From an uncultured Anaerolineae bacterium (GTDB lineage: Bacteria > Chloroflexota > Anaerolineae > CG2-30-64-16), in NCBI GenBank assembly GCA_937124585.1, contig CAKZKT010000149.1:1-36997 (forward strand): a DNA stretch of 36,997 nt, written 5' to 3'. Below the pieces are notes generated by a model that saw nothing but the letters and a program-made list of their open reading frames with translations, made no database searches and was not told where the DNA came from. Positions 4,623 through 36,997 of this stretch are shown here, piece after piece; the first letter of the stretch is position 1; each line of letters begins with the position of its first letter. Position numbers and translations under genes: made by a program.

Positions 4623-4655
4623 ACGTGCCAGGCACTTCATAAGTGCCTGGCACGT
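4623..4655. repeat. 15-bp-arm palindromic repeat, family A
   Basis: ACGTGCCAGGCACTT, three bases CAT, then the exact reverse complement of the arm. The same arm occurs at 5966-5998 inside the downstream-read regulator gene, and a variant (13-bp arms) occurs four times at 12070-12258. Here it begins ten bases after the stop codon of the regulator gene on the minus strand, followed at distance by a T-run (4604-4608), so it could act as a transcription terminator or 3' stabiliser. Confidence 0.8.
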
Positions 4656-4664
4656 TGCTTGCGG

Positions 4665-7424
4665 TCATGCCATCAGCCCCAACTCCCGCGCTCGAGCCAC
4701 GGCCTGCGCCTGGCGGTTCACGCCCAGCTTGCCGTAGATCTCCTTGACGTGGAAGCGCACCGTGTTGAGGCTGACCACCAGCCGGTCGGCGATCTCGGCG
4801 TACTTGAACCCCGCGGCCAGCAGCCGCAGCACCTCCAGCTCGCGCTCGCTGAGGGGTTCGACCACCTCACCCCCCTGGCCCCCTCTCCTGAGAGGCGAGG
4901 GGGAGGTTAGGGGGAGCCAGGCGGGCCGGCCGAGGCGCGCCAGCAGGGCCTCGAGGGCCGGGCCTTCGTCCAGGAAGGGCCGGATTGCGCCTTCCGGCTC
5001 GGCAAGGGCCAGCGCCCGCTCCAGATAGCGCCGCGCAGCCCGCAGGTCGTCGGCCGCCAGCCGCGCGGCCCCGAGCAGCGCGTGGAGCAGCGTACCGTGT
5101 CGGCCGCCGGCATCGGCCGAGCGGATGATGCGTTCCGCCAGGCCGGCCGCGCGGCTGTCCCCACGGCCGGCCAGCAGCCGCAGCCAGGCCAGGTGCACCG
5201 GATCGGTGTGGACGGCGACGGGGTCGTCCAGGCCGATGCCGCTGCCCCGCAGGTGCGCCTCTGCCGCTGCGTCGTCGCCCCGCGCCAGCGCCAGGCGCGC
5301 CTGCTCGCCGATGAGCGGCGGCCGCAGCCAGCCCGGCGCGCCCGCCGCCAGCAAGCGGGATGCCTCGGCCAGCGCATCCGCCGCGTCGTCCAGCGCGCCT
5401 TCCGCCTGCAATAGCCGCGCCAGGTTGAGCTGGCTGTAGATCAGCGAGGCGTTGTGGCCCACGAGGGCGCTCAGCCGGATGGCGGTCTGGAGGTGTTCGC
5501 GTGCCCGGTCGAGCTCGTTCCACTGGTAATGGATCAGCCCCAGCGCGCCGTGCACTGCGCCCACGATAGTGGGAGGCGCCGCGGCAGGCGCGGCCGACAG
5601 CGAGGCTGCCCCGCGTTCCAGCCGGTCGAGGGCCTCGGTCGCGGCCTGGGCCGCCAGCCGCAGCCGGCCGTACTGCGTCGCCATCAGGGTCAGGTGCGAC
5701 ACCGCCAGCATCTCGGTCACCCGGTCGCCCGAGGCCCGGCTGGCCCGGATGGCATCCTGGAGCGCGGCGACGGCCCGGTCGTAGTCGGGCAGTTGGCGGT
5801 AGGCGCCGCCCAACGCCAGCGAGGCCAGCCCGATCAGCCGTTGGTCGTCGGCCGGGGCGTGTGCCAGGGCCTGGCGGCCGGCCTCGATAGCCTCGGCGAT
5901 CCGGCCCTGCGCCTGCAACAGGTTGGCCCGCAGCGCCAGGCATTCGCTGCGCCAGGCCGTCGCGGACGTGCCAGGCACTTCCGAAGTGCCTGGCACGTGG
6001 ATCGCGGCTTCTGTCTGCGCCAGGTGCGGCGCGACCTGCGCCAGGTTGCCCCGCAGCAGGCTCATCCAGCCCAGGTCCAGGCTGATGCGCGGGCTGCGGT
6101 CGCGCAACCCGACCGGCAGGGCGCTCAGCCAGCCTTCCAGCGTCCGGGCGTAGCCGCGATTAAGCAGCGCCCAGCCGTGGCATTCCAGCAGCGCCACGAC
6201 CCGCTCGTGCTCGGCCGCGGCCAGCGCATGGCCGATGGCATCTGCGGGCATCCCATGCGCCTCGTACCAGCGACTGGCGCGGTTGTGCAGGCCGGGGACT
6301 TCCTCCGGCCATGTGCGGCGCAGCTGCGCTTGCAACAGCTCGGCGAACAGGTGATGATAGCGATACCAGCGCCCCTCGTCGTCCAGGGGGATGATGAAGA
6401 GGTTGGCGCGTTCCAGGTGTTCGAGGACGGACCTCGCTCCCCTCCCCCGGCCTGCAGCCACCCCCTCCCCTCTCTCCTGAGCGTAGTGCTGCTCAGGAGA
6501 GGGGGGAGGGGGCCGGGGGGTGGAGGGTGAGGTCACCGCGTCGCACAGCTCGGCCGTGAGCTGCGCCAGGATGGAGGTGCGCAGCAGGAACGTCTGCACC
6601 TCGGCCGGCTGCCGCGCCAGCACCTCCTCGGTCAGGTAGCCCAGGATGAAGCGGTGCGTGCCGCTGAGGCTCTGGACGAAGGCGGAGGCGTCGGAACGGC
6701 CCTGCAGGGAGAGCCCGGCCAGTTGCAGGCCTGCAGCCCACCCCTCGGTGCGTTCGGCCAGCCGGGCCAGGTCCGACTCGGACAACGGCAGCCCCATGCC
6801 GTCGCGCAGCAGGGCCGCGATCTCGGCCTCGCCGAAGCGCAGGTCGGCCGCGCGCACCTCGGTGAGCTGGTCGCGGGCGCGCAAGCGGGCCAGGGGCAGC
6901 GGCGGGTCCTCGCGCGTGACCAGCACCAGGTGCAGGCCGGCCGACGGATGCGCCAGCAGGTCGCCCAGGATGCTCAGGATGGCCTTGTCCTGGATGACGT
7001 GGAAATCGTCCAGCACACAGACGATCGGCATGGCTGCGACCAGGTCGTTCAGCAGTGTCGTCGTCAGAACGGCCGGCGGCGGCAGCTGGCCTGCGCGCAG
7101 GGCAGGGGTCAGCTCAGCGCCGATGGCCGGGGCCACCCGCTGCAGGGCTGCCACGAAATAGGTGAAGAAGCGCAGCGGGTCGTCGTCGGCCTCGTCCAGC
7201 GCCAGCCAGGCGACCGGCCGGTCGAGCCGGGCCGCCCACGCCGCGGCCAGGGTGGTCTTGCCGTAGCCCGCGGGCGCGGCGATCAGCGTCAGCGGCCGGC
7301 CGGCGGCCAGCCCGGCGTCGAGCCGCGCCATCAGCGCCGGCCGCGGCACCGGATGGCGCGGGGCCGCGGGCCGGTGGAATTTGGCCGCGATCACGGTGGG
7401 TTCGGGCAGAGGGCCTCTCAGCAT
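4665..7424 (-). CDS. MalT/LAL-type LuxR-family ATP-dependent transcription regulator
   Basis: A 919-residue one-component regulator. Walker A is APAGYGKTT at about 50-58 and Walker B VCVLDDFH at about 135-142 (STAND-type NTPase); a long helical TPR-like sensor follows, and the C-terminal 63 residues are a LuxR helix-turn-helix (SERELEVLRLLAAGF...VSLNTVRFHVKEIYGKL). In MalT-like proteins, ATP and an inducer drive oligomerisation and activation. Three repeat elements lie inside the frame without breaking it: HVPGTSEVPGT (about 476-486), a Pro/Arg/Gly-rich stretch (about 297-331) and SPLRRGGQGGE (about 838-853, just before the HTH). No ribosome site precedes the ATG at 7422-7424, but TATAAT ends six bases before it, so the mRNA may be leaderless. 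It is transcribed away from the 7641-10287 trio, a possible target. Confidence 0.88.
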   Translation of the reverse strand: MLRGPLPEPTVIAAKFHRPAAPRHPVPRPALMARLDAGLAAGRPLTLIAAPAGYGKTTLAAAWAARLDRPVAWLALDEADDDPLRFFTYFVAALQRVAPAIGAELTPALRAGQLPPPAVLTTTLLNDLVAAMPIVCVLDDFHVIQDKAILSILGDLLAHPSAGLHLVLVTREDPPLPLARLRARDQLTEVRAADLRFGEAEIAALLRDGMGLPLSESDLARLAERTEGWAAGLQLAGLSLQGRSDASAFVQSLSGTHRFILGYLTEEVLARQPAEVQTFLLRTSILAQLTAELCDAVTSPSTPRPPPPSPEQHYAQERGEGVAAGRGRGARSVLEHLERANLFIIPLDDEGRWYRYHHLFAELLQAQLRRTWPEEVPGLHNRASRWYEAHGMPADAIGHALAAAEHERVVALLECHGWALLNRGYARTLEGWLSALPVGLRDRSPRISLDLGWMSLLRGNLAQVAPHLAQTEAAIHVPGTSEVPGTSATAWRSECLALRANLLQAQGRIAEAIEAGRQALAHAPADDQRLIGLASLALGGAYRQLPDYDRAVAALQDAIRASRASGDRVTEMLAVSHLTLMATQYGRLRLAAQAATEALDRLERGAASLSAAPAAAPPTIVGAVHGALGLIHYQWNELDRAREHLQTAIRLSALVGHNASLIYSQLNLARLLQAEGALDDAADALAEASRLLAAGAPGWLRPPLIGEQARLALARGDDAAAEAHLRGSGIGLDDPVAVHTDPVHLAWLRLLAGRGDSRAAGLAERIIRSADAGGRHGTLLHALLGAARLAADDLRAARRYLERALALAEPEGAIRPFLDEGPALEALLARLGRPAWLPLTSPSPLRRGGQGGEVVEPLSERELEVLRLLAAGFKYAEIADRLVVSLNTVRFHVKEIYGKLGVNRQAQAVARARELGLMA
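4866..4914. repeat. GC-rich C/G-tract repeat inside the regulator frame, family B
   Basis: A stretch with CACCCCCCTGGCCCCCTCTCC, then a GAGAGG centre and GAGGGGGAGGTTAGGGGG, forms an imperfect inverted repeat of polypyrimidine against polypurine. It encodes the low-complexity SPSPLRRGGQGGE linker between the sensor region and the HTH. The same CCCTCTCCTGAG core appears at 6461-6512, so the two are copies of one family. Confidence 0.6.
5966..5998. repeat. family A palindrome inserted in frame in the regulator gene
   Basis: Fifteen-base arms ACGTGCCAGGCACTT and its exact reverse complement flank a CCG centre. The element is 33 bases, a multiple of three, and contributes HVPGTSEVPGT to the protein in the TPR-like region. 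The arms equal those of the intergenic copy at 4623-4655, which identifies this as a mobile palindrome landing inside a gene, comparable in outcome to Rickettsia palindromic elements. Confidence 0.8.
6461..6512. repeat. 22-bp-arm inverted repeat inside the regulator frame, family B
   Basis: A left arm at 6461-6482 and right arm at 6491-6512 pair with one mismatch around the eight-base loop GTAGTGCT. The arm core is CTCTCCTGAGC. It codes for a Pro-, Arg- and Gly-rich stretch including PRPPPPSPEQHYAQERGEG between the NTPase region and the helical region. The surrounding 6436-6535 is also C/G-tract sequence, so the insert is probably about 90-100 bases. Confidence 0.7.
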
Positions 7425-7565: not shown

Positions 7566-7595
7566 TTGACAAGGCAACCGTTCTACCACTATACT
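7566..7595 (+). promoter_or_regulatory. sigma70-like promoter for the GNAT/TraB trio
   Basis: TTGACA (7566-7571), an 18-base spacer and TATACT (7590-7595) form a near-consensus promoter reading into the gene at 7641, with an expected leader of about 40 bases. It faces away from the regulator promoter 105 bases to the left. Confidence 0.7.
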
Positions 7596-7640: not shown

Positions 7641-8555
7641 ATGGCGCGAAAGAGGTCGCTGTTCGACCGGCTGTGGCCCGGCCGGGCTGCCAATGACAGG
7701 CAGAGCGAGGTGTTCGGCCCCCAGCAGGAGGCTTATGTGCTCCGGCACGCAGGCGTGCCGGAGCACATTCCGGGGCTGATGGCCGGTGTCTCCGCCGCGG
7801 CGCCGTGCCTGGTGGACGATCATCTTTGCTTCACGAAGGAGAACTGGCTGATCTTTGTCGGGTATCCCCTGGAGGGGCCTTTCTCGGTTGAGCGCTGCAC
7901 GGCCGCGGTGAACCGGGCTGTGGCGCAGTATCATCCCCGGGTGATATGGTTTATCGGGCCGCAAGTGCCGGCAGAGCTGGCAGCGAGATGCTGCGCGCGA
8001 CAAACGGATGTCTACTACCGGCTCGATCTGCCCGTAGCACTCAAGCCGGCGCTGCGACGGGCCATCCGCGCGGCGGCTGCCAATCTGACCGTTCGCGCCG
8101 GCCGCGCGTACAAGGCCGAACACGTCGCGCTGGCCGACGAACTGATGGCGCGGACGCCTCTGCCGGCCATGGTGGCCGGCCTTTACCGTGCCATGCCCGA
8201 CTACGTGGCTCGCTCCGCCACCGCCACCGTGCTGGAGGCGCGCACAGCCACTGGCGCACTGGCCGCTTTCTACGTCGTCGAAGAGGCGGCTCCTGCGTTC
8301 GATGTCTATGTGCTGGCCGCATACACACGCCATCCCTACGTCCCTCACGCTTCTGACCTGCTCTGCGCCGCGATGATCGAACGGGCACAGGCAGCCGGCA
8401 AGCACCTGATCCATCTCGGCCTGGGTGTCAATGCGGGAATTCGACGTTTCAAGGAGAAATGGGGCGGCGTGCCCTTCCTGACCTATGAATTCTGCGAATG
8501 CCGCTTCTACAGCGGTCATCCGATGGTTGATCTCTTGTTGGAGTGGAAACTATGA
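7641..8555 (+). CDS. GNAT-like acyltransferase-fold protein, paralogue 1 of trio
   Basis: A 304-residue soluble protein. The C-terminal half has HASDLLCAAMIERAQAAGK, HLIHLGLGVNAGI and RRFKEKWGGVPF. This small-residue/helix/beta pattern ending in FKxKWG is the signature of the GNAT-like fold shared by Acetyltransf_6, FemAB-like and lysylphosphatidylglycerol-synthase-type aminoacyl/acyl transferases. The N-terminal half (VPEHIPGLM; WLIFVGYPLEG; YYRLDLP) is shared almost motif for motif with the third gene of the trio, so the two arose by duplication. The substrate is unknown. ATG 7641 has a weak AGGG upstream but a strong promoter. The stop overlaps the next start (ATGA), implying coupled translation. 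It lacks the longer central segment seen in its paralogue. A perfect 30-base palindrome lies at 7737-7766. Confidence 0.72.
   Translation: MARKRSLFDRLWPGRAANDRQSEVFGPQQEAYVLRHAGVPEHIPGLMAGVSAAAPCLVDDHLCFTKENWLIFVGYPLEGPFSVERCTAAVNRAVAQYHPRVIWFIGPQVPAELAARCCARQTDVYYRLDLPVALKPALRRAIRAAAANLTVRAGRAYKAEHVALADELMARTPLPAMVAGLYRAMPDYVARSATATVLEARTATGALAAFYVVEEAAPAFDVYVLAAYTRHPYVPHASDLLCAAMIERAQAAGKHLIHLGLGVNAGIRRFKEKWGGVPFLTYEFCECRFYSGHPMVDLLLEWKL
7737..7766. repeat. perfect 14-bp-arm palindrome within a coding region
   Basis: GTGCTCCGGCACGC, AG, then GCGTGCCGGAGCAC: a perfect 14+2+14 inverted repeat encoding VLRHAGVPEH about 100 bases into the first gene of the trio. The paralogue at 9355 keeps the VPEH codons but not the left arm, so the symmetry is particular to this copy. 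Confidence 0.8.
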
Positions 8556-9358
8556 TCCCCTGGCCCTGGCGTGAATGGCCGCTGCGCATGGTCTGGCGCG
8601 TCGAGCGCAACGGCCGGTGTTCACATCTCGTCGGCACCGCGCACTTTTTCCCATACAGTTTTGCCCGTCCCCTGACTCGGCTGATCCGTCCTGCCATCGT
8701 TGTGCTGACCGAAGGCCCGCTCGATGCGGCCAGTTCAGAGGCCATCGCCGAGTACGGCCGGTCGGGGACCAACAATCTGGCCGCGCTTCTGCAGCCTGAC
8801 GCCATCGGCCGGATCGAAAAGATCCTGCGCGAGCGGGCCAACCATGACGGTGCAGCCTGGTTCATCCCGCCCCCAGGGCCTGTCTACTTCGAGGCATACA
8901 CGACCGGCGTGCGGCCGTGGGCGGCCTTTTTCTCGATCTGGGGCGCGTATCTGGGTTGGCGCTACTCCGTGGATGCAGAGGGCTACCGCATCGCCGGCAA
9001 GTTGGGCAAGCGAATTGGTTCGCTGGAGACGTTGGAGGAGCAGCTGGCCGTGCTGGACAGCATCCCTGTCGAGCGCATCGTGCGCCAGCTCAACGACGTG
9101 GCCAACTGGGATGCCTACCGGCGGGAGTATGTGCGCCTCTACCTGGCGGGAGACCTGGACGGCCTGGTTGCGCTCACTGCTGGTTTTGTGACTCGTGGCC
9201 CTGCGGTGGTGGGCCGGCGCGACAGCAGCATGTTCGCCGCACTACGGCCGTTCTTCGACGCCGGGGACACGGTGGCGTTTATCGGCTTCCCGCACGTGCC
9301 GGGCGTGACCCATTTGTTGCGAGAGGCCGGTTACGCTGTGACGCAGGTGACCGCGTGA
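8552..9358 (+). CDS. TraB/GumN-family protein
   Basis: A 268-residue protein with the hallmarks of the TraB/GumN (PF01963, TIKI-related) family: VGTAHFFP near the N terminus (GTxH), LTEGPLD, the central GKLGKRIGSLETLEEQL segment, VGRRDSSMF (RN/RDxxM) and FIGFPHVPGVTHLLREAGY near the C terminus (GxxH). In TIKI-type members the two GxxH motifs with Glu and Arg build a metal-dependent protease site; most bacterial members have no assigned substrate. No signal peptide or membrane helix is apparent, so it is probably cytosolic. The ATG at 8552 overlaps the stop of gene 1 by four bases, and its TGA overlaps the GTG of gene 3 by four. Being held between two paralogues suggests the three act together. 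Confidence 0.82.
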   Translation: MIPWPWREWPLRMVWRVERNGRCSHLVGTAHFFPYSFARPLTRLIRPAIVVLTEGPLDAASSEAIAEYGRSGTNNLAALLQPDAIGRIEKILRERANHDGAAWFIPPPGPVYFEAYTTGVRPWAAFFSIWGAYLGWRYSVDAEGYRIAGKLGKRIGSLETLEEQLAVLDSIPVERIVRQLNDVANWDAYRREYVRLYLAGDLDGLVALTAGFVTRGPAVVGRRDSSMFAALRPFFDAGDTVAFIGFPHVPGVTHLLREAGYAVTQVTA

Positions 9359-10287
9359 TCGCCCCCGGGGAGCGCAGCTACATCGCAGCGCGTGCCTGCG
9401 TGCCGGAACACCTGCCCGCCTATGTGTCGGCCATCACCGGCGGCGAGCCGCATCTGTTCGGCGATTTCCTGGTCTATACCTGCGCTGATCGGTTGATCTT
9501 CGTGGGCTATCCTTTGAGCACGGCGTGCGACGAGACGGCCTGGCTGGCCGCGTTCGACGCGGCGATCGGTCGCTTCCGGCCCCGGCTCGTCTCGATCACC
9601 GCCGCGGCGTTGCCGCCGCGGCTGCGCGACTGCCCTGCATCTCCGGCCGACGCCTACTACCGGCTCGACCTGGCCGATGTGCGGCCCACGAAGAAAGTGC
9701 GCAACCTGCTGCGCCGTGCCAGCCGCGAGGTGACGATCGGACAGGCCGCCGCCCTGGGTCCCGAGCATCGCCGGCTGGTGACCGATTTTCTGGCCACCGT
9801 GCCGGTAGATGAGGGGACGCGCTTTATCTTCGAGCGGCTGGAGCGGTATGCGGGACCGCGGCACGGGTTTGCGACGTTGATCGGCCGGGTGGCTGCCGGG
9901 ATCCGATTGAAGTCCCTCTGGCGGTTCCATTCAGCCCAAGACGCGCAGGTGCCCGACCTGGGCGAACCGTTGATCCTCGAGGCGCGCAATGCGGTCGGCA
10001 GGCTGGCCGCGTTCGACATCGCCGCGTTCGGCGGGGAGTATGGGTTCTATCTGTTCAATTTTCGCGCGCGCGAACGCTATGTGCCCGGCGCGTCCGACCT
10101 ACTGCTGGCGCGGCTGATGGACGCGGCGCAGGCGCGCGGCAAGCGGTATCTCAACCTGGGTCTGGGGATCAACCCCGGTGTCGCTCATTTCAAAGAGAAG
10201 TGGGGTGCCATGCCGTTCCTGGCGCACGTCGCCTGCGTGTGGGAGCGGCCGCAGCGTGCGTGGGAGCAGGCGCTGGACGCGCTGTAG
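9355..10287 (+). CDS. GNAT-like acyltransferase-fold protein, paralogue 2 of trio
   Basis: The 310-residue product is a clear paralogue of the protein at 7641: shared blocks are ARACVPEHLPAY, LIFVGYPLS, DAYYRLDLAD, GASDLLLARLMDAAQARGK, YLNLGLGINPGV and HFKEKWGAMPF. The C-terminal half fits a GNAT-like/FemAB-like transferase. It has an extra 30-40-residue central segment (around FIFERLERYAGPRHGFATLIGR) that paralogue 1 lacks. The start is GTG 9355-9357 in a GTGA overlap with the preceding stop; only a weak GGTGA is seen upstream, so translation is probably coupled. The open frame extends upstream to 8917 but that part overlaps the TraB gene and is not convincing. Substrate unknown; divergence between the two copies hints at different specificities or a heterodimer. 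Confidence 0.75.
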   Translation: MIAPGERSYIAARACVPEHLPAYVSAITGGEPHLFGDFLVYTCADRLIFVGYPLSTACDETAWLAAFDAAIGRFRPRLVSITAAALPPRLRDCPASPADAYYRLDLADVRPTKKVRNLLRRASREVTIGQAAALGPEHRRLVTDFLATVPVDEGTRFIFERLERYAGPRHGFATLIGRVAAGIRLKSLWRFHSAQDAQVPDLGEPLILEARNAVGRLAAFDIAAFGGEYGFYLFNFRARERYVPGASDLLLARLMDAAQARGKRYLNLGLGINPGVAHFKEKWGAMPFLAHVACVWERPQRAWEQALDAL

Positions 10288-12043: not shown

Positions 12044-12069
12044 AGCCTTTGTGCTGATGCGAATCTCTC

Positions 12070-12258
12070 CACGTGCCAGGCACTCTGCAAGATGCCTGGC
12101 ACGTGATGCGGCGTCTCTCCCACGTGCCAGGCACTCTGCAAGATGCCTGGCACGTGATGCGGCGTCTCTCCCACGTGTCAGGCACTCTGCAAGATGCCTG
12201 GCACGTGATGCGGCGTCTCTCCCACGTGCCAGGCACTCTGCAAGATGCCTGGCACGTG
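12070..12258 (+). repeat. tandem array of four 51-bp units with family A-like palindromes
   Basis: Four 36-base hairpin units (12070-12105, 12121-12156, 12172-12207, 12223-12258) are each built from CACGTGCCAGGCA, ten bases CTCTGCAAGA and TGCCTGGCACGTG. They are separated by the identical 15-mer ATGCGGCGTCTCTCC, so the period is exactly 51 bases. Unit 3 has one C-to-T change in its left arm (CACGTGTCAGG). The arm shares CACGTGCCAGGCAC with the single copies at 4623 and 5966. The array fills the gap between two membrane-protein genes and would give four hairpins in the transcript. Confidence 0.95.
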
Positions 12259-12301
12259 ATGTGCCCTCGCAATCCAACCATATTCACCCGTGAGGAATCC
12301 C

Positions 12302-12808
12302 ATGACAACCCGACTGAACCCGACCACCCGCAATTCGCTTGTCGCCGGCCTGGCACTGATCGTTTTCGGCGTCCTGATGCTCCTGGGTCAGCTGGAGCTG
12401 CTCGGCCGCCTGGAGCTGCTGATCGTGCCCACGCTGGCCGTAATCTTCCTGGCCTGGGGCCTGATAACGCACACATTTGGCCTCGTCATCCCGGGCGGCA
12501 TCCTGGCCGGCATCGCCCTGGCCAGCTACCTGATCGAGCAGCCGTTTGCGACCGCGTCCGAGCCGACCCGAGGCGCGATCTTCTTGCTGGCCTTTTCGAC
12601 GGGCTGGGTGCTGATCGCTCTGCTTTCCCTCTTCCTGTCGGCCCGTTTTCAGTGGTGGCCCCTGGTTCCGGCCGGGGTCATGGGTGCCATCGGCGCCCTG
12701 CTGCTGGCCGGTGAGGCCGGGCTCGGGATCCTGCGCGTGCTGGGCTACGTCTGGCCTCTCATCCTGATCGCTGTCGGCGTCTGGATCATTCTGCGACGCC
12801 GTCAGTAG
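12302..12808 (+). CDS. multi-pass membrane protein, second LiaF-TM-like protein
   Basis: A 168-residue protein with five to six hydrophobic helices: NSLVAGLALIVFGVLMLLGQ, LIVPTLAVIFLAWGLI, LVIPGGILAGIALASY, AIFLLAFSTGWVLIALLSLF and a last WPLILIAVGVWIILRRR. The glycine-containing helices and the WPLxxxAxGxxxxxRR end match the LiaF/DUF5668-type module and the pattern of the protein at 10720. ATG 12302 has TGAGGAAT six bases upstream; a GTG at 12290 in frame would start before that site and is less likely. It follows the tandem palindrome array and precedes a promoter for the M23 peptidase, so it ends the envelope cluster. Confidence 0.7.
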   Translation: MTTRLNPTTRNSLVAGLALIVFGVLMLLGQLELLGRLELLIVPTLAVIFLAWGLITHTFGLVIPGGILAGIALASYLIEQPFATASEPTRGAIFLLAFSTGWVLIALLSLFLSARFQWWPLVPAGVMGAIGALLLAGEAGLGILRVLGYVWPLILIAVGVWIILRRRQ

Positions 12809-36833: not shown

Positions 36834-36864
36834 ATTTTCGAGGAAAGGGACTGTGAAACTCAGG

Positions 36865-36997
36865 CGGCGACATGCCGCCGCAAGCCAAAGTGGTGGTGTA
36901 CCACCGCAAGCCAAAGCGGTGGCGTGCCGCCGCAAGCCAAAGCGGTGGTGTACCACCGCAAGCCAAAGCGGTGGCGTGCCGTCGCAAGCCAAAGCGG
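36865..36997 (+). repeat. 26-bp tandem array with constant 10-mer and palindromic 16-mer
   Basis: Five units start at 36865, 36891, 36917, 36943 and 36969, and a sixth is cut by the window end. Each has a 16-base core, for example CGGTGGTGTACCACCG or CGGTGGCGTGCCGCCG, followed by the constant CAAGCCAAAG. Cores differ between units but nearly always stay self-complementary as RNA, including G-U pairs. No coding frame is convincing here. The array evidently continues past the window. Confidence 0.9.

Follow-up and report, generated by a model that had tools for sequence, protein, structure and literature searches.

The trio described here lies in a 36,997-nucleotide stretch of DNA (the window, by which we mean the whole of the sequence analysed) and consists of two outer genes, A and C, on either side of a middle gene B, with the coordinates collected in Table 1. 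As the initial annotation had it, these same-strand genes are joined by ATGA and GTGA overlaps, and the strong promoter that it had placed in front of them stands as a near-consensus prediction, with TTGACA-18-TATACT occurring in none of 100 shuffles of the window. The gene divergent from the trio is likewise that of a MalT-type regulator (TPR_MalT 6e-41, GerE 3e-15), which has no counterpart among the neighbours common to relatives' loci and, because it does not recur beside their trios, was left out of the unit. Proteins A and C align over 296 columns with 32% identity (E = 3e-43) and share the blocks VPEH, LIFVGYPL, YYRLDL and FKEKWG, which makes them, by sequence, the paralogues that the initial annotation had taken them for, and not members of unrelated families.

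Table 1. Position and character of the trio genes and associated features in the window
Feature	Position	Strand	Remarks
Gene A (G1), dual-GNAT FemX/MprF-like transferase by fold	7641..8555	+	304 aa, ATG start
Gene B, TraB/PrgY/GumN protein	8552..9358	+	268 aa, ATG start
Gene C (G2), paralogue of A	9355..10287	+	310 aa, GTG start
ATGA overlap, stop of A and start of B	8552..8555	+	
GTGA overlap, stop of B and start of C	9355..9358	+	
Predicted sigma-70-like promoter TTGACA-18-TATACT, 5' of gene A	7566..7595	+	11/12 consensus positions
In-frame insert in gene C, ~100 bp	9859..9958	+	missing from aligned relatives of other genomes

The genome holds a further C-type copy, situated at the end of a different contig (C117; L011:7070-7906). 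This copy is 72% identical, has its frame disturbed near the 3' end and carries an unrelated in-frame insert of ~148 bp precisely where that of C lies. Repeats were also seen in the wider sequence. A palindromic repeat, ACGTGCCAGGCACTTCnnAAGTGCCTGGCACGT, lies in frame within the gene for the MalT-type regulator, with window sites at 5966-6007, 4623-4664 and 12069-12319 (four tandem copies at 12069), and again in frame within a cobB-like gene that lies on a different contig of the genome (L081:5426-5464), while 26-bp tandem repeats occupy the contig end (window 36864-36993).

Solved structures contained no meaningful sequence match for the outer proteins, even when searched with a 43-member profile, and comparison of folds was the sole informative comparison with solved structures. 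The AF2 model of A, built from six sequences (pLDDT 81.4, pTM 0.75), comprises a soluble dual-GNAT fold only, with no membrane or flippase domain. Its best Foldseek matches in the PDB are FemX (3e-10) and Pseudomonas aeruginosa MprF (3e-10), both at a TM of ~0.6, with L-PGS, A-PGS and the tRNA-dependent peptide synthases Sbb17/Sba18 also at the top and tandem-GNAT acetyltransferases lower down. The earlier description of the outer proteins as GNAT-like is thus borne out by the modelled fold, and in a more specific form, the predicted fold being dual-GNAT and FemX/MprF-like. The best Pfam match of the family is LPG_synthase_C (PF09924), found in 18 of 43 members with a best value of 4.8e-7; Acetyltransf_6 matches 16/43 and ATE_C, the C-terminal domain of arginyl-tRNA-protein transferase, 2/43. 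The window's own proteins (P0001 and P0003) score under the Pfam cut-offs, P0003 reaching 14.5 against 27.5 bits for PF09924. In the numbering of C, the invariant residues include P17, E18, D99, D248, G269 and F279-K280-x-K282-W283, H138 being nearly so, and F279-K280 and K282 are invariant in 55 outer proteins. In FemX, Lys305 is the only reactive residue, and DhpH-C needs both Phe328 and Lys329 (PMC12945691). The FK motif of the outer proteins putatively corresponds to these residues.

GNAT folds also use acyl-CoA, and the trio could then comprise two acetyltransferases carrying out acyl-CoA-dependent protein modification, with the TraB protein as a protease that reverses or polices it. The GNAT fold of A and the Acetyltransf_6 matches agree with this explanation, to which we nevertheless give only a slight chance: the best fold matches are aminoacyl-tRNA-dependent enzymes, the F-K-x-K-W motif appears closer to that of such enzymes than to an acetyl-CoA loop, and no dedicated target protein is conserved at the locus.

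Protein B scores 96.9 bits against TraB_PrgY_gumN (PF01963; cut-off 26.8) over residues 14-265 and has both of the GxxH motifs that the initial annotation had reported, GTAH at 28-31 and GFPH at 245-248. Among 20 to 25 trio-linked relatives, their glycines and histidines (G28, H31, G245 and H248) and E54 do not vary, and R215, R223 and D224 are invariant in trio-linked relatives as well. Judged on these alignments, B is a true TraB/PrgY/GumN protein; an AF2 model from three sequences was poor (pLDDT 48). The TraB/GumN family is widespread, with members in bacteria as well as human TIKI/TRABD, little is understood of its enzymatic roles, and TraB belongs to a hydrolase-type superfamily. The last point fits lipid aminoacylation in the style of MprF, in which G1 and G2 (the outer proteins before and after TraB, respectively) would attach amino acids to a membrane lipid and TraB would de-aminoacylate it, a concrete form of the modification-and-removal unit proposed initially. 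The presence of MprF, A-PGS and L-PGS among the top fold matches of A and of LPG_synthase_C as the best Pfam match speaks for it, but the modelled fold of A is soluble and has no membrane or flippase domain, FemX matches A just as well, and the radical SAM gene found in relatives (see below) is left unexplained. We consider lipid aminoacylation unlikely on balance.

When public genome contigs were scanned with C, two relatives emerged, one in a Desulfobacterales MAG and one in a Syntrophaceae MAG, both within trios with the gene order of the window. The arrangement is therefore not due to chance, since its order recurs in distant genomes; the lack of co-occurrence that would have refuted the initial annotation was thus not seen. 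We sampled 345 genomes of the phylum to which the Desulfobacterales MAG belongs (presumably Desulfobacterota), and an alignment search found the outer family in 29, most of which have two copies ~1.7 kb apart with TraB in between. Among 301 genomes sampled from the window's own phylum, only the window's genome and one genome with a lone C-type gene have the outer family, and further samples of genomes again gave these two alone; the sampled genomes are partly fragmented MAGs and cover two phyla. The lone C-type gene lies immediately 3' of a heme-O-synthase-like prenyltransferase gene (L012:6660-8405). The outer family is very rare in the window's own phylum, and for this reason the window's trio was probably acquired by horizontal transfer, although the GC content of the trio genes (0.65-0.68) matches that of the window (0.65). 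We rejected a phage or plasmid origin: PHROGs gave no match, and no plasmid match was found for a Desulfobacterales relative of C.

In a maximum-likelihood tree, 55 outer proteins fall into 28 that are encoded before TraB (G1) and 27 encoded after it (G2), a split with support 100/100, the window's A falling within G1 and its C within G2. From this clean split it follows that the duplication is older than the spread and that the copies were kept together. In relatives G1 always precedes TraB, and G2 always follows TraB where the order is usual. Rearranged loci comprise two genomes with the order G2-G1-TraB, two in which G2 lies apart from G1-TraB, and one in which G2 is divergent from G1; throughout these, G1 and TraB remain adjacent. 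Moreover, G1 and TraB are fused into a single protein in ~7 genomes, and one genome encodes a G2-radical SAM fusion of 711 aa. The proposal that the three genes form a functional unit is thus upheld by conserved order, ancient co-inheritance and gene fusions, and the trio is the core of an undescribed system co-inherited by distantly related anaerobic bacteria.

The usual form of this system is G1-TraB-G2-radical SAM/SPASM with a PF03601 membrane protein nearby. A radical SAM/SPASM gene stands directly 3' of G2 in ~22 loci, and a radical SAM match of at least 100 bits is present in 27/32 trio genomes as compared to 2/38 others (Fisher p = 4e-12, with kinship ignored); of the five trio genomes without a match of 100 bits, several have loci on contig ends. 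CxxxCxxC is retained in the radical SAM partners, and the SPASM cysteines in most of them. A PF03601 (YeiH-like) protein is encoded in 30/32 trio genomes and 12/38 others (kinship again ignored), and in 13 of the 32 its gene lies no more than ~3 kb from the trio or the radical SAM gene, where 0.25 would be expected. Where the radical SAM gene lies apart from the trio, as in G547, G322 and the lone-G2 genome G170, the PF03601 gene still adjoins it. PF03601 proteins linked to the trio are ~440-630 aa long and score 150-180 bits, as against ~350 aa and 226-311 bits for typical ones. The longer, divergent form is seen beside the radical SAM gene in two phyla (L006:12-1862, L112:3055-4389, L113:529-2079).

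Salmonella YeiH, of the PF03601 family, drives sulfite resistance (PMC12880088), and this family is the commonest extra neighbour, also beside radical SAM genes unlinked from the trio. Both observations would fit a sulfur-stress or sulfite module built around PF03601, whose enzymes make a protective small molecule or repair damage. We find such a module very unlikely, however, as no gene of the trio system is directly tied to sulfite and the trio-linked proteins, being longer and divergent (~440-630 vs ~350 aa), may differ in role from YeiH.

The families nearest to the radical SAM/SPASM protein are TIGR04317, a tungsten oxidoreductase maturase, and TIGR04311, both with cut-offs well above its scores; against TIGR04317 it reaches 151-167 bits where the curated cut-off is 380. 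This proximity raises the maturation of an AOR-family tungsten enzyme as an explanation, the radical SAM protein acting as metalloenzyme maturase and the trio assisting it, and an AOR gene indeed adjoins the outer family in five loci (0.75 expected), including that of the second C-type copy in the window's genome. We downgraded this explanation, which now seems distinctly unlikely, because AOR is entirely absent from four trio genomes (G354, G440, G520, G557) and other genomes have up to 22 AOR copies; the radical SAM score of ~157 bits against 380 also counts against it, and the four Desulfobacterota cases probably represent few independent events since their flanks are similar.

Several further neighbours were observed. 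Pairs of NF038143 (HYxxLL) proteins (for example L047:3133-4366, L054:4944-6183 and L012:3370-4713) are encoded in 7/32 trio genomes and 0/38 others, several of them beside the PF03601 gene. The AOR genes that lie beside the trio in some genomes are mostly divergent from it (L050:1-2823, L060:2299-4647, L073:1108-4307) and usually accompanied by a DUF362 gene, a gene for a small ferredoxin, or both. Alternative heme genes close to two of the loci, and a LarC-like gene for nickel insertion close to one, were regarded as incidental.

The window itself carries the trio alone, without radical SAM or PF03601 genes. Its genome does encode a radical SAM relative on another contig (C116:10019-11056), with a PF03601 gene 14 kb away, and these may or may not be partners of the window's trio. 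In the tree, the C116 radical SAM protein groups with its counterpart from a genome of the same family that lacks the trio, outside the trio-linked clade, and the genes for the two have the same flanking genes. We therefore dropped it as the missing partner of the trio, and the local pathway may lack the radical SAM step.

No conserved small precursor ORF was found at the trio loci; among small ORFs that do not overlap known genes, ferredoxin alone recurs, in a few related loci. This absence argues against a ribosomal peptide, so that a RiPP cluster was rejected, and fits assembly independent of the ribosome. In view of the radical SAM/SPASM and PF03601 partners, a biosynthetic pathway seems the better reading than a simple add/remove switch. 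We propose, tentatively and at somewhat under an even chance, that the system comprises two aminoacyl-tRNA-dependent transferases, a hydrolase and a radical SAM enzyme that together make or edit a small aminoacylated molecule. Here, G1 and G2 would be dedicated transferases of the FemX/MprF superfamily that draw on aminoacyl-tRNA and act in succession on a single small acceptor, be it a lipid head group, the precursor of a cofactor or a short metabolite of peptide-like character, much as FemA/FemB or DhpH/DhpK do. Such sequential action on one acceptor could account for the near-constant retention of two divergent paralogues. The radical SAM/SPASM enzyme would then oxidatively tailor the conjugate, and TraB may hydrolyse it for trimming, proofreading or product release; TraB keeps closest to G1, frequently as a fusion, and might proofread or cleave the product of that enzyme. 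The PF03601 protein, finally, might export the product or an anionic by-product.

A fuller statement of this biosynthetic proposal, as an undescribed and horizontally spread system of anaerobes in which a pair of aminoacyl-tRNA-dependent ligases works with a radical SAM/SPASM enzyme, complemented by a hydrolytic TraB step and a divergent PF03601 exporter, is possible but, taken as a whole, less likely than not. If true, it would yield a novel small molecule that serves as cofactor, metallophore or signal and is made without ribosomal precursor or NRPS, and would provide the first pathway role for the poorly understood TraB family. The trio may mark a new class of tRNA-dependent small molecules in Desulfobacterota and also in a few genomes of the window's phylum, and the conserved operon, with its occasional fusions, offers a concrete genetic context for finding a TraB substrate. 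A literature search, mostly without subscription journals, found no paper on the combination of trio, radical SAM and PF03601, in keeping with the initial annotation, which knew of no described system with such an arrangement.

With respect to known systems, the catalytic domain of MprF and aminoacyl-phosphatidylglycerol synthases (PF09924) supplies the best Pfam match of the outer family and top fold matches. Unlike full-length MprF, A (304 aa) and C (310 aa) have the size of the catalytic domain and no N-terminal membrane flippase domain; they also fall under the PF09924 gathering score, are paired with TraB and, in relatives, accompanied by radical SAM. They share with FemABX, as represented by FemX of Weissella viridescens, a dual-GNAT fold, a similar size and, putatively, the invariant FK lysine near the C-terminus, but have no detectable sequence match to the solved FemX, and the two divergent paralogues flank TraB with no link to cell-wall genes seen. 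TIGR04317 and TIGR04311 radical SAM/SPASM maturases are the families nearest to the fourth gene of the relatives, which nonetheless scores well below their cut-offs and is mostly not beside an AOR gene. Among natural-product pathways, the GNAT-fold transferases DhpH/DhpK, PacB and Orf11 provide precedents (PMC12945691). The outer proteins resemble these enzymes, and Sbb17, in fold and in the idea of pairing two aminoacyl-tRNA-dependent enzymes within a single pathway. We know of no pathway that joins such GNAT transferases with TraB and radical SAM/SPASM. Protein B, lastly, is a clear member of the TraB/PrgY/GumN/TIKI family (PF01963) with both GxxH motifs, and the B-type TraB proteins differ from their TraB/TIKI relatives in being operon-bound and often fused to an aminoacyltransferase-like domain.
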